From Candidatus Gastranaerophilales bacterium (GTDB lineage: Bacteria > Cyanobacteriota > Vampirovibrionia > Gastranaerophilales > Gastranaerophilaceae): DNA of 64,000 bases. The translations under genes were made by a program, and so were the position numbers. Positions 5,918 through 63,984 of this stretch are shown one piece after another; position 1 is the first letter of the stretch, and the number at the start of each line of letters is the position of its first letter. The stretch is taken from contig CALUVW010000008.1 of the NCBI GenBank assembly GCA_944324315.1, forward strand, positions 1 through 64,000. Direction: 5' to 3'. Below the pieces are notes generated by a model. That model had not been told where the DNA came from. It did not search any database and was given only the letters and a program-made list of their open reading frames with translations.

Positions 5918-5965
5918 ATGAAAAAGACAAGATTTAGCGTATCTTCGGGGGGGGGGCAAATTTAA
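5918..5965 (+). CDS. Poly-G mini-ORF, candidate phase-variable 5' end of the next pilin-like gene
   Basis: As read, this encodes 15 residues, MKKTRFSVSSGGGQI, and ends with TAA. AAGGAGG sits 7 nt before ATG and a good promoter lies upstream, so it is likely translated. The glycine codons are a run of ten G (5947-5956). With one more or two fewer G, the frame avoids the TAA and stays open for 32 codons into the ATG of the pilin-like gene at 6052. Two further cassettes of the same layout occur at 46882 and 62921. Whether the short peptide or the fused form matters cannot be told from one sequence. Confidence 0.5.
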   Translation: MKKTRFSVSSGGGQI

Positions 5966-5987
5966 GCTCCTTACAATCATTTTGGGG

Positions 5988-6015
5988 TTGTCAAAAAAAT
6001 AAAACCTGCTATAAT
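5988..6015 (+). promoter_or_regulatory. Promoter inside the open frame, before the pilin-like gene
   Basis: TTGTCA at 5988 and an extended -10 (TGCTATAAT, box at 6010) are 16 bp apart. This would drive the pilin-like gene at 6052 independently of the poly-G frame, so in this locus phase change may only switch between a short and an N-terminally extended form. Confidence 0.5.
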
Positions 6016-6051
6016 GGAGATGTATTACATCAACATTATAGAAAGGGTTAT

Positions 6052-6819
6052 ATGAAAAAACAAGCATTCACCTTAGCAGAGGTATTAATCACCCTCGGCA
6101 TAATCGGAGTTGTTGCAGCTATGACAATGCCTACATTGATAGCAAACCATCGGAAGCAGGTTTATGTTTCCGGTTTGAAAAAAGGTATGAGTACCATATC
6201 TAATATGTTTCAGAAAATGATAGCAGATGAGGAGGCGTCAGGCTTAAATTCAATAAGCCTTTTTTCAGACGGTATGTGTACACCAGGACTTGATGATACT
6301 ATAGGCGAAGGATGCGAAGATTTTTATGGCAATCCAAGTTTATTTGATAAATTAATTCCTAAATATATAAAGATTGTAAAAACTTGTACAAACTCCGAAT
6401 GTGATATTAAATATATTGATAACCATTTAAATTGCGATAATTCAGGCAAATGTTCTTTATATAAATTTAGCGCTGGTGATTCAATTAGTAACGCTTTATA
6501 TACTTCTGGGTATGTGTCTACAAGTTATAAAGGGTATTTTAGTGCTGATGGCATAATATACTATTTTGCGTTTGCAGGTTGGATTGGTTCTAATGTCTCG
6601 GATTCAGGGGCAATCAGTGTTTGTATGGATGTTAATGGTGAAAAAGGTCCAAATGCCCGTGGAAGAGATTTATTCTGTCTTGCATATTGTCAAAAGTTGA
6701 ATGGAAAAATATTGCCACGGCCAAATTATGATGTTTGTAATTTTCCTGCTGATGAGGATGATTATAAAACTTATCCATTATATTATTTGATGCAAAACGG
6801 ATATCAAATGGACTATTAA
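6052..6819 (+). CDS. Type IV pilin-like / pseudopilin protein
   Basis: 255 residues. A short basic leader (MKKQA) precedes the class III signal FTLAEVLITLG and the hydrophobic helix IIGVVAAMTMPTLIA, as in type IV pilins and type II secretion pseudopilins. Glu5 of the mature protein is present. The residue before the cleavage site is Ala rather than Gly. The globular part is Cys-rich and carries DVNGEKGPNARGRDLF, a motif shared by most paralogues here and plausibly a metal-stabilised loop. AAAGGG is close to ATG. Its stop overlaps the start of the GT2 gene at 6819 (TAATG), so the two may be co-translated. Confidence 0.85.
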   Translation: MKKQAFTLAEVLITLGIIGVVAAMTMPTLIANHRKQVYVSGLKKGMSTISNMFQKMIADEEASGLNSISLFSDGMCTPGLDDTIGEGCEDFYGNPSLFDKLIPKYIKIVKTCTNSECDIKYIDNHLNCDNSGKCSLYKFSAGDSISNALYTSGYVSTSYKGYFSADGIIYYFAFAGWIGSNVSDSGAISVCMDVNGEKGPNARGRDLFCLAYCQKLNGKILPRPNYDVCNFPADEDDYKTYPLYYLMQNGYQMDY

Positions 6820-9581: not shown

Positions 9582-11189
9582 ATGGACTTAAATGTTGAAA
9601 TTAAGGATTCAAAAATAATTATTTCCTGGCAGGATATTGGTGCTGATTTTTACAGAGTGTTTTGTAAAAAAGACGGGATATTTTTGGAATGTGCAAAAGT
9701 TTTTGAGGGTACATCTTTAAGGCTTTCTCTTTTGCCTTACGGTGAAAACGAGTGTTTTGTTCAGGCTGTAAAAAATGGTTGTGTTATTGATGAATCTAAA
9801 AAACATGAATTTTTATTTGATATTGTTGATGTAGAGTACCGTTTGGAAGGTGATAATATAAAATTCTTTTACGGAAGCTGTAAAGGTGCTGAGGGATACA
9901 GATTATACAGAAATGAGGAAGGGGTAGGCTTTAACGGTTGTAAAAACTCGGATACCTGTTTTCTTTCAATAAAAAAAGGAGAAGAAAAAGAATTTAAAAT
10001 TAAACCGTTTATAAAAGACGGCGACGGAAGAAAATTTTTAGCTTCTTCAAAAGAAATTTCTGTTACCGAAAATAAATTTGAGTCATTATCGGTTTATAAA
10101 TCCTATAATTATAATCTGTTTTTATCCTGGAATTATAAGGGAAATGCCGATGGTTTTTTGATTTTCGCACAGCATTCAAATAAACCTGCTTTTGAAATCA
10201 ATGACGGTTTATGTCATTATCTTCCTATTTATGATTATAAAGGCAGTACAAAGTTTGTTGTAAAGGCTTTTGTTAATACCGTAAACGGGAGATTAATTCT
10301 GGCGGAATCAAACCCTGTTTCTTTGACTATAAGGCGGTATAAAAAGCCTTTAGTATCATTGATAATTCCTGCATATAACGCTCAGGATTATATCGCGAGA
10401 AGTATTGACAGTGCACTGGCATCAGATTTTTCTGATCTGGAAATCATAATAGTAAATGACGGCAGTACTGATGATACACAAAAAATTATTGACTGGTATG
10501 TTACAAATTATCCGAATGTCATATCTTTAGTTAAAGAAAACGGCGGGGTTGCAGATGCAAGAAATGTTGGTATAGAGGCTGCTAAAGGTGATTATATTGC
10601 ATTTATGGATAATGATGATTTAATCCGACCTGATATGATAAGCAAACTTTACAACTCAATTGAAAAAAATAATTGTGATGTTGCGGTTGCTCCATTATAC
10701 AGAATTTTGGATAACGGTTATACTACTCACTGTAATTTACCGTTTTTGGAAGATATTCCCATTAATATAGATAAATATTTAGAGATTATGTATACACCCG
10801 GTTATTATAACTGTGCTATCTGGAATAAACTTTATAAGGCATCAATAGTAAAAGAACATCCTTTAGGACTTTTGAAATATGAGGATGTATCCTGGACACC
10901 GTGTATTCTTTCGTATGCCAAAAAATTCTGCTTTTTAAAAACTCCTTTTTATGAGTGGGACAGAAAAACAAGGCCTCAAACTTTTGGAGATGTTCTTGCA
11001 AAAATGCCTGAAGATGAACTTTTTGAAAATCGAAAACAGGCTATGCTGTTTTTTGTGAAAAACGGTAATCCTGAAAAAATAGACTTTCTAAAAGAAATTG
11101 CAAAACGCAGATTAAAACGCTATGCTAAAAAATCTACAAATCCCGCTTACTATGAATTGATTGATATAATAGATGATGGCAGGTATTAG
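9582..11189 (+). CDS. GT2 glycosyltransferase with N-terminal beta-sandwich (FN3-like) repeats
   Basis: 535 residues. The first 240 look like two or three repeated beta-rich domains with the FN3-like rhythm (IIISWQDIGADFYRVFCK; FFYGSCKGAEGYRLYR; LFLSWNYKGNADGFLIF). From about residue 245 a GT2 domain follows: PLVSLIIPAYNAQDYI, IIIVNDGSTDDT, GGVADARNVGI, then the DxD-type MDNDDLI and KLYKASIVKEH. The ATG at 9582 is used because TATAAT ends 6 nt before it (probable leaderless mRNA); a longer frame to 9411 would overlap the divergent gene. The enzyme is cytosolic or peripheral; substrate unknown. Confidence 0.85.
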   Translation: MDLNVEIKDSKIIISWQDIGADFYRVFCKKDGIFLECAKVFEGTSLRLSLLPYGENECFVQAVKNGCVIDESKKHEFLFDIVDVEYRLEGDNIKFFYGSCKGAEGYRLYRNEEGVGFNGCKNSDTCFLSIKKGEEKEFKIKPFIKDGDGRKFLASSKEISVTENKFESLSVYKSYNYNLFLSWNYKGNADGFLIFAQHSNKPAFEINDGLCHYLPIYDYKGSTKFVVKAFVNTVNGRLILAESNPVSLTIRRYKKPLVSLIIPAYNAQDYIARSIDSALASDFSDLEIIIVNDGSTDDTQKIIDWYVTNYPNVISLVKENGGVADARNVGIEAAKGDYIAFMDNDDLIRPDMISKLYNSIEKNNCDVAVAPLYRILDNGYTTHCNLPFLEDIPINIDKYLEIMYTPGYYNCAIWNKLYKASIVKEHPLGLLKYEDVSWTPCILSYAKKFCFLKTPFYEWDRKTRPQTFGDVLAKMPEDELFENRKQAMLFFVKNGNPEKIDFLKEIAKRRLKRYAKKSTNPAYYELIDIIDDGRY

Positions 11190-12034
11190 TTTTTAAAATT
11201 ACGTTTTAGTTTAAATTGTAATCCAAAAATCCGGACAATTTTTTTGCTTCTGTCATTTCTAATTGAAAAAATATTCTGCAGAAAGGTTACGTCTTGTTGT
11301 GCAAATTTATTATAAAGTAATTTTTGAGTTTTTATGTTATCAGTGAGAAAATTTAATATTTCTTTCTGAATTTTTTCAGATTCACTGCTCATTTTTGATT
11401 TTTGATTGCTGGCATTGTTTTCATGTTTTCTGTATTTAAGCAATACCTCTTGAATGTTTGCCATATTTAAGTATTTTGCGGCTTTTGCAAATAGTGCATA
11501 ATCCTGTGCTCCGTAATAACCTTCTTCATAAATAAGGTTATATTTTTCAAAATCCGCTTTCCGCCACATACATGCTGGGTGTATAATTTCGCATCTTTTT
11601 AGAAAATCTAAATATCTGGGAGAAGGTTTAGTTTTCCATATTTTTTTTGTGTTTAATATTTCTATCCATCCAGATACCAGTGAAATTTGCGGATTGTTTT
11701 CAAGGTAGTTATATTCTTTTTCCAGCCTGTCAGCAAGTGAAATATCGTCGTGATCCGCAATAGCAATATATTTCCCTTGTGCAAGAGATAATAATTTGTT
11801 ACGTGTTTTGGTTATACCGCTATTATCTTGTTTATAATATTTTATTCTAGGATCATTATAAGAGAGTATGATTTCTTGTACATTATTTGTTGAACCGTCA
11901 TTTAAAATAACAAGTTCAAAGTTTGTAAAAGTCTGGTTTAAAATACTTTCAATACAGGCGCGTAAATATTCTTCTTTAGTGTTATAAACCGGCAGAAGAA
12001 CTGAAACTTCGGGGGGGGGGCACTCTTTTAGCAT
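11186..12034 (-). CDS. GT2 glycosyltransferase with a C10 tract at its start (candidate contingency gene)
   Basis: 282 residues with a canonical GT2 N-terminus: VSVLLPVYNTKEEYLRACIE, LVILNDGSTNN, GITKTRNKLL, IADHDDIS. Codons 5-8 (CPPP) are written in ten consecutive C on the coding strand (12011-12020). At ten the gene is in frame; loss or gain of one base would truncate the protein within a few residues. Homopolymeric G/C tracts in glycosyltransferase genes are the classical phase-variation device in Campylobacter and Neisseria. The ATG overlaps the stop of the upstream GT2 gene, so a frame change would silence only this enzyme. It converges on the FN3-GT2 gene with a 4-bp overlap. Confidence 0.85.
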   Translation of the reverse strand: MLKECPPPEVSVLLPVYNTKEEYLRACIESILNQTFTNFELVILNDGSTNNVQEIILSYNDPRIKYYKQDNSGITKTRNKLLSLAQGKYIAIADHDDISLADRLEKEYNYLENNPQISLVSGWIEILNTKKIWKTKPSPRYLDFLKRCEIIHPACMWRKADFEKYNLIYEEGYYGAQDYALFAKAAKYLNMANIQEVLLKYRKHENNASNQKSKMSSESEKIQKEILNFLTDNIKTQKLLYNKFAQQDVTFLQNIFSIRNDRSKKIVRIFGLQFKLKRNFKN

Positions 12035-12966
12035 CTCTTTAGTGCTCCGAATAATTTACCGCTGTTTTTGTAAGTCCGCGTTAACATATTGAAAAATATA
12101 GTTTTACCTCCAAGCAATGAAAATAAGGTTAATATAATATTACAAATAATAGTAGCACATTTTTCTAAAATGTAAATTATTCTTTTAAAAATATTTTTGT
12201 TATTTTTAAATTTTGAAATTGATACTGTATAACCGTTATTATAAGCTCGTTTTAAAATCCATTTAATGTGCGCTCTGTCATCATCTATAATTTCGTAATT
12301 TATTGCGTCGCAATTCCAGCCTATTTTATATCCTAGACTGCTTATCCTGCTGAAAAAGTCAGTATCTTCGCTCCCGCAAGTATTAAAAGCTTTAGAAAAA
12401 TATATGTTATTATCTTTTATAATATCTAAAGGAAAAAATACATTCCCGCTTGCACAAGTCTTTTTTATTGTTCCTGTTGTTTTTGATGAAGTTTTAAATA
12501 TTTTATTTTTAGTAATATGAGCCGGATATTTCTTTGCGAATTTTTTAATTGTCGGACCGCTGCTCACATATATTTCATCATAATTATTATAAAAATTTAT
12601 ATGATTTATTAACCAGTCATCATTGGCAATTTCATCATCATCAATAAATGCTATATGAGAAGCACCTAAATTTATGCCTTCTTGAATTGCCCTGTTGCGC
12701 ACATTTGATAATCCTTTTTCTGTTTCATTAGTGTAGTGTATCTTAATTGCACAAGAATTATTGTATTTGTCGTAAATTTGTTTTGAACTTTGTTCTATAT
12801 CGTTGTCAACAATTAATATTTCGCATTTGATATTTTCAGGATACTTTATATTCAATAAATTTTTAATGAGCCTATCAAGGAGTACAGGCCGTTTATATGT
12901 ACAACAGCTTATAAGAATATAGGTTATTAGACTTTTATTGTTAATTTTTTTATGATTTTGTGCCAT
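12028..12966 (-). CDS. GT2 glycosyltransferase
   Basis: 312 residues, GT2 fold: YILISCCTYKRPVLLDRLI, ILIVDNDIE, KGLSNVRNRAI, and the metal-binding IDDDEIAND; then a candidate catalytic region GSEDTDFFSRI and a hydrophobic C-terminal stretch (ATIICNIILTLFSLLGG) suggesting membrane attachment. It is translationally coupled to the C10-containing GT2 gene downstream, so both probably add sugars to the same surface glycan. Specificity unknown. The 250 bp upstream of it hold only AT-rich sequence with no other gene that I can see. Confidence 0.85.
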   Translation of the reverse strand: MAQNHKKINNKSLITYILISCCTYKRPVLLDRLIKNLLNIKYPENIKCEILIVDNDIEQSSKQIYDKYNNSCAIKIHYTNETEKGLSNVRNRAIQEGINLGASHIAFIDDDEIANDDWLINHINFYNNYDEIYVSSGPTIKKFAKKYPAHITKNKIFKTSSKTTGTIKKTCASGNVFFPLDIIKDNNIYFSKAFNTCGSEDTDFFSRISSLGYKIGWNCDAINYEIIDDDRAHIKWILKRAYNNGYTVSISKFKNNKNIFKRIIYILEKCATIICNIILTLFSLLGGKTIFFNMLTRTYKNSGKLFGALKRC

Positions 12967-41369: not shown

Positions 41370-42035
41370 ATGAAAATAGAAGGGTTTACATTAGCTGAAG
41401 TTTTGATAACATTAGGTATAATTGGAGTTGTTGCTGCAATGACTATACCGGCTGTTATAAATAAATATAAAAGTGTGCAGCTAAAAGCACAGCTAAACAA
41501 ATCTTATTCAACATTATATCAGGCTATAAATATGATATATACAGATAGCGGTATGCCGGTTACTTCGGAAAGCTACCCCGAGCAAGGTTCATTTGTAAAG
41601 GATTTAAAAAAGTATGTAAAAGTATTAAAAGATTGTGGAAATAGGGAGTGTTCTGAAATAAATTCGGATGATAACACTCTTAACAATTATAAAAATTTTA
41701 CCAGGACTAGTAATATAACTTATACATTCTTTGACGACGGGCAGTTAATCTTAGAGGATGGAACTTTTATTATGATTGAAAACCTTAATGTCGGCGACCT
41801 TTTCATAACAGCTGACATTAACGGTTTAGAAAAAGGCCCAAATGCCTTGGGACAAGATTTATTTTTTTTTCAAGTCTTGAACAATAAGCTTGTACCAGGA
41901 GGTGCCCCGGGAACTAAATATGATATTGAAATTAACCAAGGTTATTGCAGTACTACCGGAAATCAGTCCACAAACGGTTTTGGATGTACTTATAAAGCTT
42001 TGACAGAGTCTGATTATTTTAAACATTTACCTTAA
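41370..42035 (+). CDS. Type IV pilin-like / pseudopilin protein
   Basis: 221 residues. Leader MKIEG then FTLAEVLITLG and a hydrophobic helix; this is the only one of the five with canonical Gly before the cleavage site and the cleanest short leader. The globular part has two probable Cys pairs, ADINGLEKGPNALGQDLFFF and a C-terminus (GFGCTYKALTESDYFKHLP) nearly the same as in the gene at 54961 (GVGCTYKALTDKNYWKQLPH), marking these two as the closest pair. GAGG before ATG. There is no poly-G tract here. The divergent small HTH gene may control it. Confidence 0.9.
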   Translation: MKIEGFTLAEVLITLGIIGVVAAMTIPAVINKYKSVQLKAQLNKSYSTLYQAINMIYTDSGMPVTSESYPEQGSFVKDLKKYVKVLKDCGNRECSEINSDDNTLNNYKNFTRTSNITYTFFDDGQLILEDGTFIMIENLNVGDLFITADINGLEKGPNALGQDLFFFQVLNNKLVPGGAPGTKYDIEINQGYCSTTGNQSTNGFGCTYKALTESDYFKHLP

Positions 42036-46881: not shown

Positions 46882-46938
46882 ATGAAGAGATTTATTATGC
46901 CTGAAACACGCGGGGGGGGGGCGATTCCGAGCTTTTAG
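46882..46938 (+). CDS. Poly-G mini-ORF, candidate phase-variable 5' end of the next pilin-like gene
   Basis: As read, 18 residues: MKRFIMPETRGGGAIPSF, with AAAGGAATG upstream of the ATG. The Gly codons lie in ten G (46912-46921). One more or two fewer G avoids the TAG and gives a reading frame uninterrupted for about 100 codons to FTLAE of the pilin-like protein. After the G tract the sequence resembles that of the 62921 cassette (GAGGTCAAGAAGTCAAGCAA, then GTCATCCTGAA). Start codon to the first codon of the downstream frame is 38 nt, as in the other two cassettes. Confidence 0.55.
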   Translation: MKRFIMPETRGGGAIPSF

Positions 46939-46988
46939 AAAGCAGTTTAGCTAAGAGGTCAAGAAGTCAAGCAAGTTTAAAAAATGTC

Positions 46989-47009
46989 ATCCTGAACTTG
47001 TTTCAGGAT
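46989..47009. repeat. Interspersed palindrome, ATCCTGAA/TTCAGGAT type
   Basis: ATCCTGAA and TTCAGGAT flank 5 nt. Related half-copies or variants lie near 48863-48921, 62786-62814 and 63020-63040. This family sits in spacers and, here, inside an open reading frame, where it reads VILNLFQDL. Confidence 0.7.
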
Positions 47010-47933
47010 CTGGTAATTAGATGCAAAGCAAATTTAGAAGGTAGGATAAGATATGATGGCAGGTTGTTAACTCCAATCTTCCTTCCCTTATTAGGGAAGG
47101 ATAAGAGGATGGGTAACTATTTCAGCTTATCCAAGTTGCTATCCATCCCTGTCCCCTCCCTGATTAGGGAGGGGAAATCAGATACTATCCCTTCACCCAA
47201 CAAAAAACGCAAAGCAGCATTTACTTTGGCAGAAGTTCTCATCACGCTTGGAGTCATCGGTGTAGTAGCGGCTTTAACAATGCCGTCATTAATAGCACAT
47301 TATCAGAAGAAAGTATTGGTTACGCAGATAAAAAAAGCGTATTCAACTTTAAATGAAGGTTTCAGGCAAATAATGATTAATGAAGGCTGTACAGATTTAA
47401 TTTGTGCCGGCTTAATATATACTGAGTATGGTTCCTCTGGTGAGTTTTATCTTGGTTCTATCATCATTAATGATTCTAACTTAAACAAACTTGCCACAAC
47501 TTTCAAACTATCAGATTTTTCAAATACAAAAAATATATTTGATTATGAAATCAAAAGCTTGAATGGCGATGTGTTTGATTTTGATCCTTTTTCTAATGGA
47601 CGGTACACCGGTGTAACTCCAGATGGTATGTTTTTACTTTTTAGTTCTGAGATGGAGCCATTAGTTTTTTTTGATGTCAATGGTAGAAAAGGGCCAAATG
47701 TTTTTGGAAGAGATATTTTTGGTGTAATGATTATAGATACTATGCTTACTCCAATGTACAGCCAGGCTTTTCTAAGATTTGCAGCTGGCTCGAACGTTAT
47801 TCCTGATGATATGTCTGAAGATGATAGGATTTCCTTAATCAAACAAGCATGTTCTCCAGAATCCGATGAAATTTCTCAATTGACTGTCTGTTTAGAACGC
47901 ATTATATTGGACGGATGGGAGATGAATTATTAG
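46998..47933 (+). CDS. Pilin-like protein with long repeat-derived N-terminal extension
   Basis: The class III signal AAFTLAEVLITLG starts near 47216 and is followed by GVVAALTMPSLIAHYQKK and a globular part with FFDVNGRKGPNVFGRDIFG. There is no conventional start close to it. The frame is open from the poly-G tract at 46912; the boundary given is the first start codon (TTG) after it, and ATG at 47109 (after AAGGATAAGAGG) is another candidate. The extension contains three palindromic repeats translated in frame. If the poly-G cassette supplies the start, expression would depend on tract length. A hairpin follows the stop. Confidence 0.75.
   Translation: MFQDLVIRCKANLEGRIRYDGRLLTPIFLPLLGKDKRMGNYFSLSKLLSIPVPSLIREGKSDTIPSPNKKRKAAFTLAEVLITLGVIGVVAALTMPSLIAHYQKKVLVTQIKKAYSTLNEGFRQIMINEGCTDLICAGLIYTEYGSSGEFYLGSIIINDSNLNKLATTFKLSDFSNTKNIFDYEIKSLNGDVFDFDPFSNGRYTGVTPDGMFLLFSSEMEPLVFFDVNGRKGPNVFGRDIFGVMIIDTMLTPMYSQAFLRFAAGSNVIPDDMSEDDRISLIKQACSPESDEISQLTVCLERIILDGWEMNY
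47081..47100. repeat. Palindromic repeat CCTTCCCT...AGGGAAGG
   Basis: An 8-bp inverted repeat with TATT loop, inside the N-terminal extension of the pilin-like gene and in frame with it. Same family type as 47152-47175. Confidence 0.7.
47152..47175. repeat. Palindromic repeat TCCCCTCCCT...AGGGAGGGGA
   Basis: A perfect 10-bp inverted repeat with GATT loop, translated as PSLIREGK. A related GC-rich palindrome is at 55806-55828, also inside a pilin-like reading frame. Confidence 0.75.
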
Positions 47934-62920: not shown

Positions 62921-62974
62921 ATGAGAGAATTATTAAGAACTGTAAACCTCGGGGGGGGGGCGATTTTGAGCTAA
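62921..62974 (+). CDS. Poly-G mini-ORF, candidate phase-variable 5' end of the next pilin-like gene
   Basis: As read, 17 residues: MRELLRTVNLGGGAILS, after a strong AGAGGAG. The Gly codons lie in ten G (62951-62960). One more or two fewer G continues the frame through about 114 uninterrupted codons to FTLAE of the pilin-like protein at 63229. The early extension (GGGGDFEL) matches GGGGDSEL of the 46882 cassette. The short as-read C-terminus GGGAILS also resembles GGGAIPSF there. Confidence 0.55.
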   Translation: MRELLRTVNLGGGAILS

Positions 62975-63163
62975 ATAGAGGTCATGAAGTCCGGAGGTCA
63001 AGAAGTCAAGCAATTAAAGTCATCCTGAATTTATATCAGACAGTGTTAATCGGATACAAAAACGCTAATAGTCATATATTCAAAGTGTTTACCACAAGAA
63101 ATCGCTGCAATATTAATATCTCAAATGGGACACCCTTTGCACGTTTCAAGATATTCCAGAGGG

Positions 63164-63192
63164 TTGTAAGAACAACAAAAATCTGTTATAAT
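63164..63192 (+). promoter_or_regulatory. Internal promoter of the pilin-like gene at 63229
   Basis: TTGTAA at 63164 and TATAAT at 63187, 17 bp apart, followed by GAGGAG before ATG 63229. It lies inside the frame that would connect the poly-G mini-ORF to the pilin-like gene. Confidence 0.6.
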
Positions 63193-63228
63193 AATGATAT
63201 ATTACACTATAAAAGGAATGAGGAGTTT

Positions 63229-63984
63229 ATGGAAAAAATATTGTTATGCAAATTTTTAGATTATGCTGCGTACATAGAAACTTGTAACAAGCTTCGTCGT
63301 TGTGCCTTTACCCTTGCCGAAGTCTTAATTACGCTCGGCATCATTGGTGTAGTTGCGGCTTTAACAATGCCAACCCTTATAGCAAAGCACCAGAAACAGG
63401 TCTTTGTAAACAGAGTAAAACAAACATACAGCATAGTATCTAATGCAATGATATCTGCTGTAGCCGAGTATGGCGAACCTAATACCTGGGATGCATTTGG
63501 CAATTTTGATACATCAGATCCAAATTATAATGTAAACCATCAAAATAATATGAAAAATGTAGCAACCAAATATTTTAAGCCATATTTAAAAGTTATAGGT
63601 GAAGGTCAAGAAGGTTATCAATATTATTTGGTATTAAGTAACGGTGTAACGCTGACCTTTTATCCCGATGGTGGTACAACACCGGATGACAGTGTATTTG
63701 TGCAGACACGCGTATATATAATCGGTAGTTTAAATAATAATCATTCAACATTTACCGGTCCATCTCGTGATTATTCCCGACGTGATTTTTTGATGTCTTT
63801 TAATGTCCGCAGTACTGATTATCGCTTGAAATTTTTTAACACAGATGAGGGCAAAACAAGAGATGAGTATAAAAATGATGGACAGTACGGCTGTAACAAA
63901 GATGTACCAAAGAATAAACGATTATATTGCGGCAGTATGTTATTCTATGACAACTGGCAGTTAAAAGACGATTATCCGTGGTAA
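63229..63984 (+). CDS. Type IV pilin-like / pseudopilin protein
   Basis: 251 residues from ATG 63229 (GAGGAG upstream). The leader is unusually long (about 30 residues with four Cys) before CAFTLAEVLITLG, so its processing is uncertain; the frame is open much further upstream, to the poly-G tract at 62951. The globular part is divergent: the DVNG...GPN motif is replaced by NHSTFTGPSRDYSRRDFL, and it ends with a Cys pair (GCNKDVPKNKRLYCGSM). Its stop lies 16 bp before the window edge. It is probably a minor pilin or an adhesin-type pseudopilin. Confidence 0.82.
   Translation: MEKILLCKFLDYAAYIETCNKLRRCAFTLAEVLITLGIIGVVAALTMPTLIAKHQKQVFVNRVKQTYSIVSNAMISAVAEYGEPNTWDAFGNFDTSDPNYNVNHQNNMKNVATKYFKPYLKVIGEGQEGYQYYLVLSNGVTLTFYPDGGTTPDDSVFVQTRVYIIGSLNNNHSTFTGPSRDYSRRDFLMSFNVRSTDYRLKFFNTDEGKTRDEYKNDGQYGCNKDVPKNKRLYCGSMLFYDNWQLKDDYPW

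Follow-up and report, generated by a model that had tools for sequence, protein, structure and literature searches.

Results

The window, that is the whole 64-kb stretch of DNA analysed here, opens contig 8 of a genome of 1.88 Mb in 49 contigs. On its minus strand lie two genes which both match PF00535 and are therefore family 2 glycosyltransferases (GT2), the upstream one overlapping the start of the other by seven bases (Table 1). The ORF of the latter begins with ATG CTA AAA GAG TGC CCC CCC CCC GAA, the ten C making up the last base of codon 5 and codons 6 to 8, and reading of the sequence bore out the description in the earlier note of a C10 tract that is in frame at ten. A long, uninterrupted homopolymer thus lies towards the 5′ end of the ORF, and a one-base change in it truncates the product: when the tract length was edited, the ORF fell to 31 codons with nine C and to 17 codons with eleven. 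The upstream GT2 gene would be spared by such a change, as that note had also proposed, because its stop codon precedes the tract.

Four C10 tracts were present on the minus strand of the window, each of exactly ten bases and always with the G on the plus strand, while G runs of 7–9 were absent from the window and a single C run of 7 was found. C8 matches numbered 12 in the window as against 0.16 expected from 100 dinucleotide shuffles. The other three tracts lie in prepilin leaders, where the frame opened at ten G is short (Table 1). The pilin frame at 5959 joins the ATG at 5918 only with a tract one base longer, giving 300 aa, and has an internal Met immediately before FTLAE. A poly-G pilin gene is thus present near the GT2 tract, about 6 kb away, as the earlier note had pointed out; this is not a special association, tracts occurring every ~17–19 kb throughout the genome.

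Table 1. Coordinates of the tracts, glycosyltransferase genes and pilin frames in the window
Feature	Position	Strand	Remarks
C10 tract (G10 on plus strand; ..CTTC-G10-CACTC..)	12011..12020	−	GT2 codons 5–8, in frame at ten
GT2 glycosyltransferase gene with tract	11186..12034	−	282 aa, ATG, PF00535 106 bits
Overlapping upstream GT2 gene	12028..12966	−	312 aa, PF00535 48 bits; stop precedes tract
G10 tract in prepilin leader	5947..5956	+	
Short ORF at ten G	5918..5965	+	MKKTRFSVSSGGGQI, then stop
Pilin frame	5959..6819	+	PF07963 match 6052–6126
G10 tract in prepilin leader	46912..46921	+	
Short ORF at ten G	46882..46938	+	18 aa
Pilin frame	46923..47933	+	PF07963 47202–47279; off by one at G10; 350 aa joined
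G10 tract in prepilin leader	62951..62960	+	
Short ORF at ten G	62921..62974	+	17 aa
Pilin frame	62962..63984	+	PF07963 63295–63366; off by one at G10; 354 aa joined
Comparison pilin without tract	41370..42035	+	ordinary short leader MKIEGFTLAEVL

The earlier note had taken the GT2 gene for a phase-variable glycan locus and had stated that interruption of the tract, or its replacement by other Pro codons, in close relatives would speak against this. In four other species (G001, G007, G013 and G019) the GT2 orthologues, which are 63–66% identical and hence not very close relatives, have a single Pro codon and no tract, and a conserved locus of that kind is not supported. Their N-termini read MGNKNPEISV (G001), MENNRPEISV (G007), MNSEYPKISV (G013) and METTMPEISV (G019) as compared to MLKECPPPEVSV in the window. 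No G/C run of at least six was noticed near the GT2 start in G001, G007 and G013, the G019 orthologue having been examined as protein only, and relative to the former three the tract inserts two codons where Pro-Glu or Pro-Lys is already present. Retention of the tract with varying length was not found among these four species at 63–66% identity. Judged from these sequence comparisons, the GT2 tract is species-level and probably young. An account specific to the GT2 gene was dropped, the tract being genome-wide and absent from GT2 orthologues.

The genome contains 97 exact-ten G/C runs, 10 runs of at least 11 and about nine runs of nine (derived from 234 nine-mers in total). In 331,555 bases fetched from the same genome, which are loci picked for having tracts, runs of length 6, 7, 8, 9 and 10 numbered 13, 0, 1, 0 and 91, respectively. 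The typical form is (T/G)C-G10-C(A/G), and nearly all exact-ten runs read, by eye, GC10G on the C strand. When flanks were aligned on the G strand, C preceded the run in 100, 95 and 95% and followed it in 98, 95 and 95% of the pilin tracts running along the G strand (50 distinct flanks), the pilin tracts running against it (19) and the rest (22), respectively; usually T stood ahead of the first C and A or G behind the second. Since this flank sits on the DNA strand and not on the coding strand, inherited coding sequence alone cannot account for it.

The orientation of the tracts agreed in 62 of 63 neighbouring pairs on the same contig. Among relatives, it flipped once, on C1, in G007 (54 tracts), and once each on C1 and C2 in G043 (45 tracts), where no other within-contig flip occurred. 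GC skew of the G strand was positive in 62 of 80, 30 of 37 and 33 of 37 regions, and its sign, noisy per 10 kb, reversed noisily around the flips in G043; dnaA was not located at the orientation flip in that genome. Resting on GC skew, the G strand of the tracts is most likely the leading strand. Some contigs end within ~20 bases of a tract (G000:C27:12, C38:21, C11:11), suggesting that assemblies break at tracts, and longer tracts may be under-counted. On contig 2, two tract pairs (L012/L014 and L013/L015), ~11 kb apart, have identical tract flanks, pointing to a recent duplication.

Runs of at least ten were found in 21 of 23 same-genus relatives, at 4 to 137 per genome, and numbered 0–3 in 15 members of other genera of the order. 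In a wider draw the motif TCG10CR occurred in 39 of 240 genomes and 12 of 82 genera, reaching 113 per genome in the own genus and 12 in other genera of the family, with one match in the rest of the class and 0–2 for the backward control. The motif is thus concentrated in the own genus and sparse elsewhere in the class. In a sample of 33 same-genus genomes drawn by the motif, the listed lengths were nearly all ten, with a few of eleven and nine. Among named records the strict motif was found in a 'Candidatus Melainabacteria' MAG only, and a search of viral_contigs for phage carriage gave no match to the strict 18-base motif. The window presumably comes from the group of this MAG, and from a gut.

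For frame analysis we considered 97 tracts, namely 95 of exactly ten, including those of the window, and two of eleven, with the exact-ten sites on C38 and C39 left out. Seventy-two of them are followed by an open frame whose N-terminus is of the prepilin type ([AG]FTLAEVLITLGIIGVVAA or a variant of it), mostly lying ~20–85 nt downstream of the start codon of the prepilin-like gene. In 69 of these 72 an ATG comes in frame only at the recorded length plus one; a single tract (L033) has one in frame at the recorded length too, and two have none at either length. At 13 of the 72 an ATG is also in frame at one base less, mostly without a ribosome-binding-like site. Genes of either strand (52 and 20) and tracts of all three codon phases obey this one-base rule, which must therefore have been kept or re-made several times rather than be one inherited accident. 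An upstream alternative start which rescues the pilin frame at ten was found only at L033, i.e. in one of 72, and at L154 in G007.

PF07963 gave 107 matches in the genome, 106 of them above the cut-off, which for 1.88 Mb makes a very large family of prepilin-type N-termini. A tract lies within 650 bp on the 5′ side of 74 of these matches and is lacking from 33, a few of which are at contig ends. Ordinary prepilins are among these 33. Among seven tract-less control prepilin loci, one of which (L198) yielded no row, five start with a ribosome-binding-like site 4–23 codons ahead of FTLAE, and the only ATG of another (L204) is without such a site. In some pilins (that of the tract at 5947 in the window, L038) an internal Met is found close to the N-terminus of the mature protein, and these may need no tract. 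The leaders between tract and mature pilin are often 60–170 codons long and contain a dispersed repeat read in frame (L024, L036, window 46923–47200), with strings such as ...NVILNLFQDL... and ...FLPLLGKDKRMG...YPPLPSLIREG..., reminiscent of coding palindromic repeats.

Tracts of other lengths in the own genome were few and mixed. Two of the nines (L193, L197) are tens with one G substituted and their offset unchanged, two others (L194, L196) are off by another amount, and L195 is not motif-like. Two elevens (L186, L192) are open at ten or thirteen and a third (L048) is in frame, whereas no pilin was within reach of the eleven of L069 or of L187–L191. A twelve (L185) is at a contig end, with no start within reach.

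Similar observations were made in other species. Out of 55 pilin tracts in G007, 49 are of ten with a Shine–Dalgarno-preceded ATG (SD-ATG) in frame only at eleven; the remaining tens have an SD-ATG at both lengths in one case and at neither in the other, and the non-tens are two of nine and one of twelve, which are open at eleven, and one of eleven, open at ten. In G043 (41 pilin tracts) 32 of ten are open only at eleven, two are open also at nine, two further tens are in frame at ten and one is without a start, and three of four G11 pilins are in frame. Further G11 sites, fetched from four other species for being eleven long, were in frame in four of five. One divergent gene, recognized by FTLAEMMVV, is in frame at G11 in the own genome (L048) and at G10 in G043 (L091); its ORF is pseudopilin-like and comprises at least 600 codons in L048. 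In the pilin family in-frame and out-of-frame lengths hence both occur, mostly ten (OFF) and also 9, 11 and 12, and being off by one at G10 is a conserved design.

The 25 tracts without a detected pilin were sorted by hand and their genes named by sight. Thirteen are accompanied by a leader of the pilin type or by a pilin that is divergent or cut. Another six are within ORFs of other kinds which are in frame at ten, namely the window GT2 gene, L011 (GT-like), L029, L060, L082 and L086 (GT2-like), so that the GT2 gene belongs to a minority class which is ON at ten. Three are off by one (L009, L075 and the GT2-like L078), and three have no spanning ORF, one of which (L056) is also without the motif. 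The L060 gene, of more than 830 codons, carries its C10 in frame within a variable linker; no G/C run of at least six was found in the first 400 bases of four L060 relatives (family L237–L241), the linker being too divergent for an empty site to be defined.

L075 encodes a protein with, by eye, an HExxH-type motif, and relatives of it were found in 10 of 31 other genomes searched; the tract counts that follow cover these relatives other than G006 and L235. In all six species with G10, including the own, the gene has the exact G10 and an SD-ATG in frame only at eleven; in G004 an additional ATG, without an SD-like site, is in frame at ten. The G008 orthologue has G8 and is out of frame too, and G047, G010 and G013 show no tract and an open frame, near the start of which a Met was seen in two of them. 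Among the six G10 species, which make 15 pairs, dN/dS downstream of the tract was 0.137–0.318 throughout, and in the 19–24 codons upstream it was 0.17–1.06 where defined. The low ratio in six species in which the gene is out of frame indicates that it is still selected as a protein.

Discussion

Tracts are of length ten at out-of-frame, in-frame and ORF-less sites alike, and this, together with their flanks and orientation, argues that the length is determined in the DNA itself. Ten also rules where the frame constraint differs, as in the six in-frame non-pilin genes and the two ORF-less tracts which bear the motif. On the other hand, the uniform offset and its conservation argue for selection of the off-by-one state at ten. 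Both would be satisfied by a pilin repertoire which is OFF by default and switched by slippage, with ten as a length set point at the level of DNA, and we prefer this explanation, while giving it an even chance of being right. According to this reading, ten G would be the stable resting length of the tract, and the pilins and a few other genes would have evolved frames that are OFF at ten. A full pilin would need a reading one base longer (11, or 8), and rare DNA slippage to 11 would switch one pilin ON temporarily and readily revert. The outcome would be a large, mostly silent repertoire of putative pilins whose members can be activated individually. The GT2 gene at 12011 may be a recent species-level gain of the tract, ON at ten and turned OFF by slippage. 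On such a reading, a probable gut bacterium would keep a large reserve of surface fibres, most of them switched off.

Some observations do not sit easily with a slippage switch. Were slippage free, OFF loci should over species time have become spread over 9, 10, 12 and 13, and the near-uniform ten demands a strong set point. In Bifidobacterium breve the main minor class at G10 is G9 and not G11. Furthermore, L075 being off by one in all six G10 species fits a programmed RNA mechanism more directly. Such a mechanism, the main rival, would make G10/C10 the working allele, with low-level full pilin from every locus, either because RNA polymerase adds one base in some transcripts or because ribosomes shift −1 on the run; we consider it possible, though we lean against it. 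Homopolymers allow slippage in the needed direction with G10 or C10 in the mRNA. The recurrence of length ten and offset −1 over loci and species, L075 included, and the purifying selection on the L075 frame past the tract are both in its favour. However, RNA slippage cannot be efficient, because the identical G10 leaves six non-pilin genes in frame, and the FTLAEMMVV gene keeps its frame in two species at differing lengths. Moreover, recoding does not account for the G strand being tied to replication instead of to the gene strand. Scanning 60 nt past the tract against mononucleotide shuffles revealed no outstanding downstream mRNA structure (mean z of −0.27 at 52 sense loci and of +0.42 at 20 antisense loci), and a stimulator of ribosomal −1 shifting was rejected for want of excess stability in these 60 nt. 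As compared to a DNA switch, RNA-level slippage thus fits the selected offset better and the DNA-set length worse.

The flanks and orientation, which belong to the DNA strand irrespective of the direction of the gene, and the ~107 pilin-like genes as substrate would also agree with the tract being a DNA recombination or replication element, for instance a G-rich site provoking gene conversion among pilins in the manner of the pilE G-quadruplex of Neisseria, with the frame offset secondary. We regard this as improbable, since selection for a DNA function alone would not produce the identical one-base offset in all codon phases; besides, the tracts are a single G10 run without the four G-runs of the pilE element. 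That the tracts are truly eleven and were called ten is very improbable. Homopolymers are indeed error-prone, Illumina struggles in reading through G tracts ('G's end' in the passages considered of PMC9187656), and some contigs end beside tracts (C27:12, C38:21). Yet six genes of the same assembly, in frame at ten, would break at 11, and for this reason homopolymer under-calling was rejected; lengths 9, 11 and 12 were also called, the nines cut by substitution (L193, L197) retain the offset, and the assemblies of many species concur, some of them in only 5–8 contigs. Decay of the pilins into pseudogenes, with the tract as a neutral expansion, is scarcely credible, too. At the recorded length the pilin is not in frame with most of the start codons, as decay would have it, but none of the 107 pilin matches has a flagged internal stop and most lie in open frames of more than 200 codons, the offset is uniform and not random, and dN/dS is well below 1 in the non-pilin L075 gene.

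If slippage switches the pilins, a very large default-OFF surface repertoire would exist in a little-studied lineage; if the release is at the RNA level, it would be a genome-wide recoding regime. A broader version, which we hold to be doubtful, is that a DNA system writes or holds exactly G10 at ~100 replication-oriented sites and thereby gates the whole pilin repertoire and some other genes, keeping them one base out of frame, with a +1 release. The release would then possibly take place in RNA, at all loci together under common control and not locus by locus, and this, if true, would constitute a genome-scale reading-frame regulon. In both cases gene callers will probably shorten tract-bearing pilins or misplace their starts. 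In the open-access literature, that is outside subscription journals and preprints, we found no report of these tracts in Gastranaerophilales or Melainabacteria, nor poly-G or slippage papers on them, and the passages searched of PMC3711429 contain no mention of pilin.

Among known systems, the Neisseria pilE G-quadruplex consists of four G-runs and acts via recombination. The tracts studied here, each a single G10 run, differ from a pilE-type G-quadruplex with its four spaced G-runs. In Mycoplasma the vlhA genes form a large paralogous surface family in which most members are OFF by the length of a GAA repeat; their switching is promoter-level and trinucleotide, and their OFF lengths vary widely. 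Here, in contrast, the OFF members have one common length. Phase-variable G-tracts are known from a handful up to some tens of loci and vary in length, whereas here ~100 are alike.

Phase-variable surface genes of Neisseria (PMC5084427) similarly have simple repeats, including G-tracts, tied to pili and glycans; there, however, repeats are of many kinds, whereas here there is one uniform tract. The system of PMC4965091, as described in the part considered, is alike in having many poly-G/C tracts inside the reading frames of one genome and frame switching by slippage. It differs from the present one, in which a single length prevails, the members of one gene family share the same one-base offset, the flanks are fixed and the G strand tracks replication.

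The closest parallel is offered by the sortase-dependent pilus genes of B. breve, in which G-tract replication slippage has been described (Penno et al. 2022, PMC9187656). In the parts of that paper considered here, as in our genome, pilus genes of a gut bacterium contain a G-tract of about ten inside the ORF, the recorded lengths split the ORF in two, and a one-base change turns it ON. G10 is dominant and fairly stable at one locus there, amounting in culture to 93.4% with 6.5% G9 and ~0.1% G11. Two loci are concerned in B. breve as compared to ~70 here, and the pili are sortase pili there and type IV-like prepilins here. The gene bbr_0113 is turned ON when its G11 loses a base and becomes G10. 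Neither fixed flanks nor an orientation relative to replication, both present here, was found in those passages (PMC9187656). Thus, slippage-gated pili are already known, whereas the scale, the single length, the common one-base offset and the orientation with respect to replication were not encountered in the open-access papers searched.
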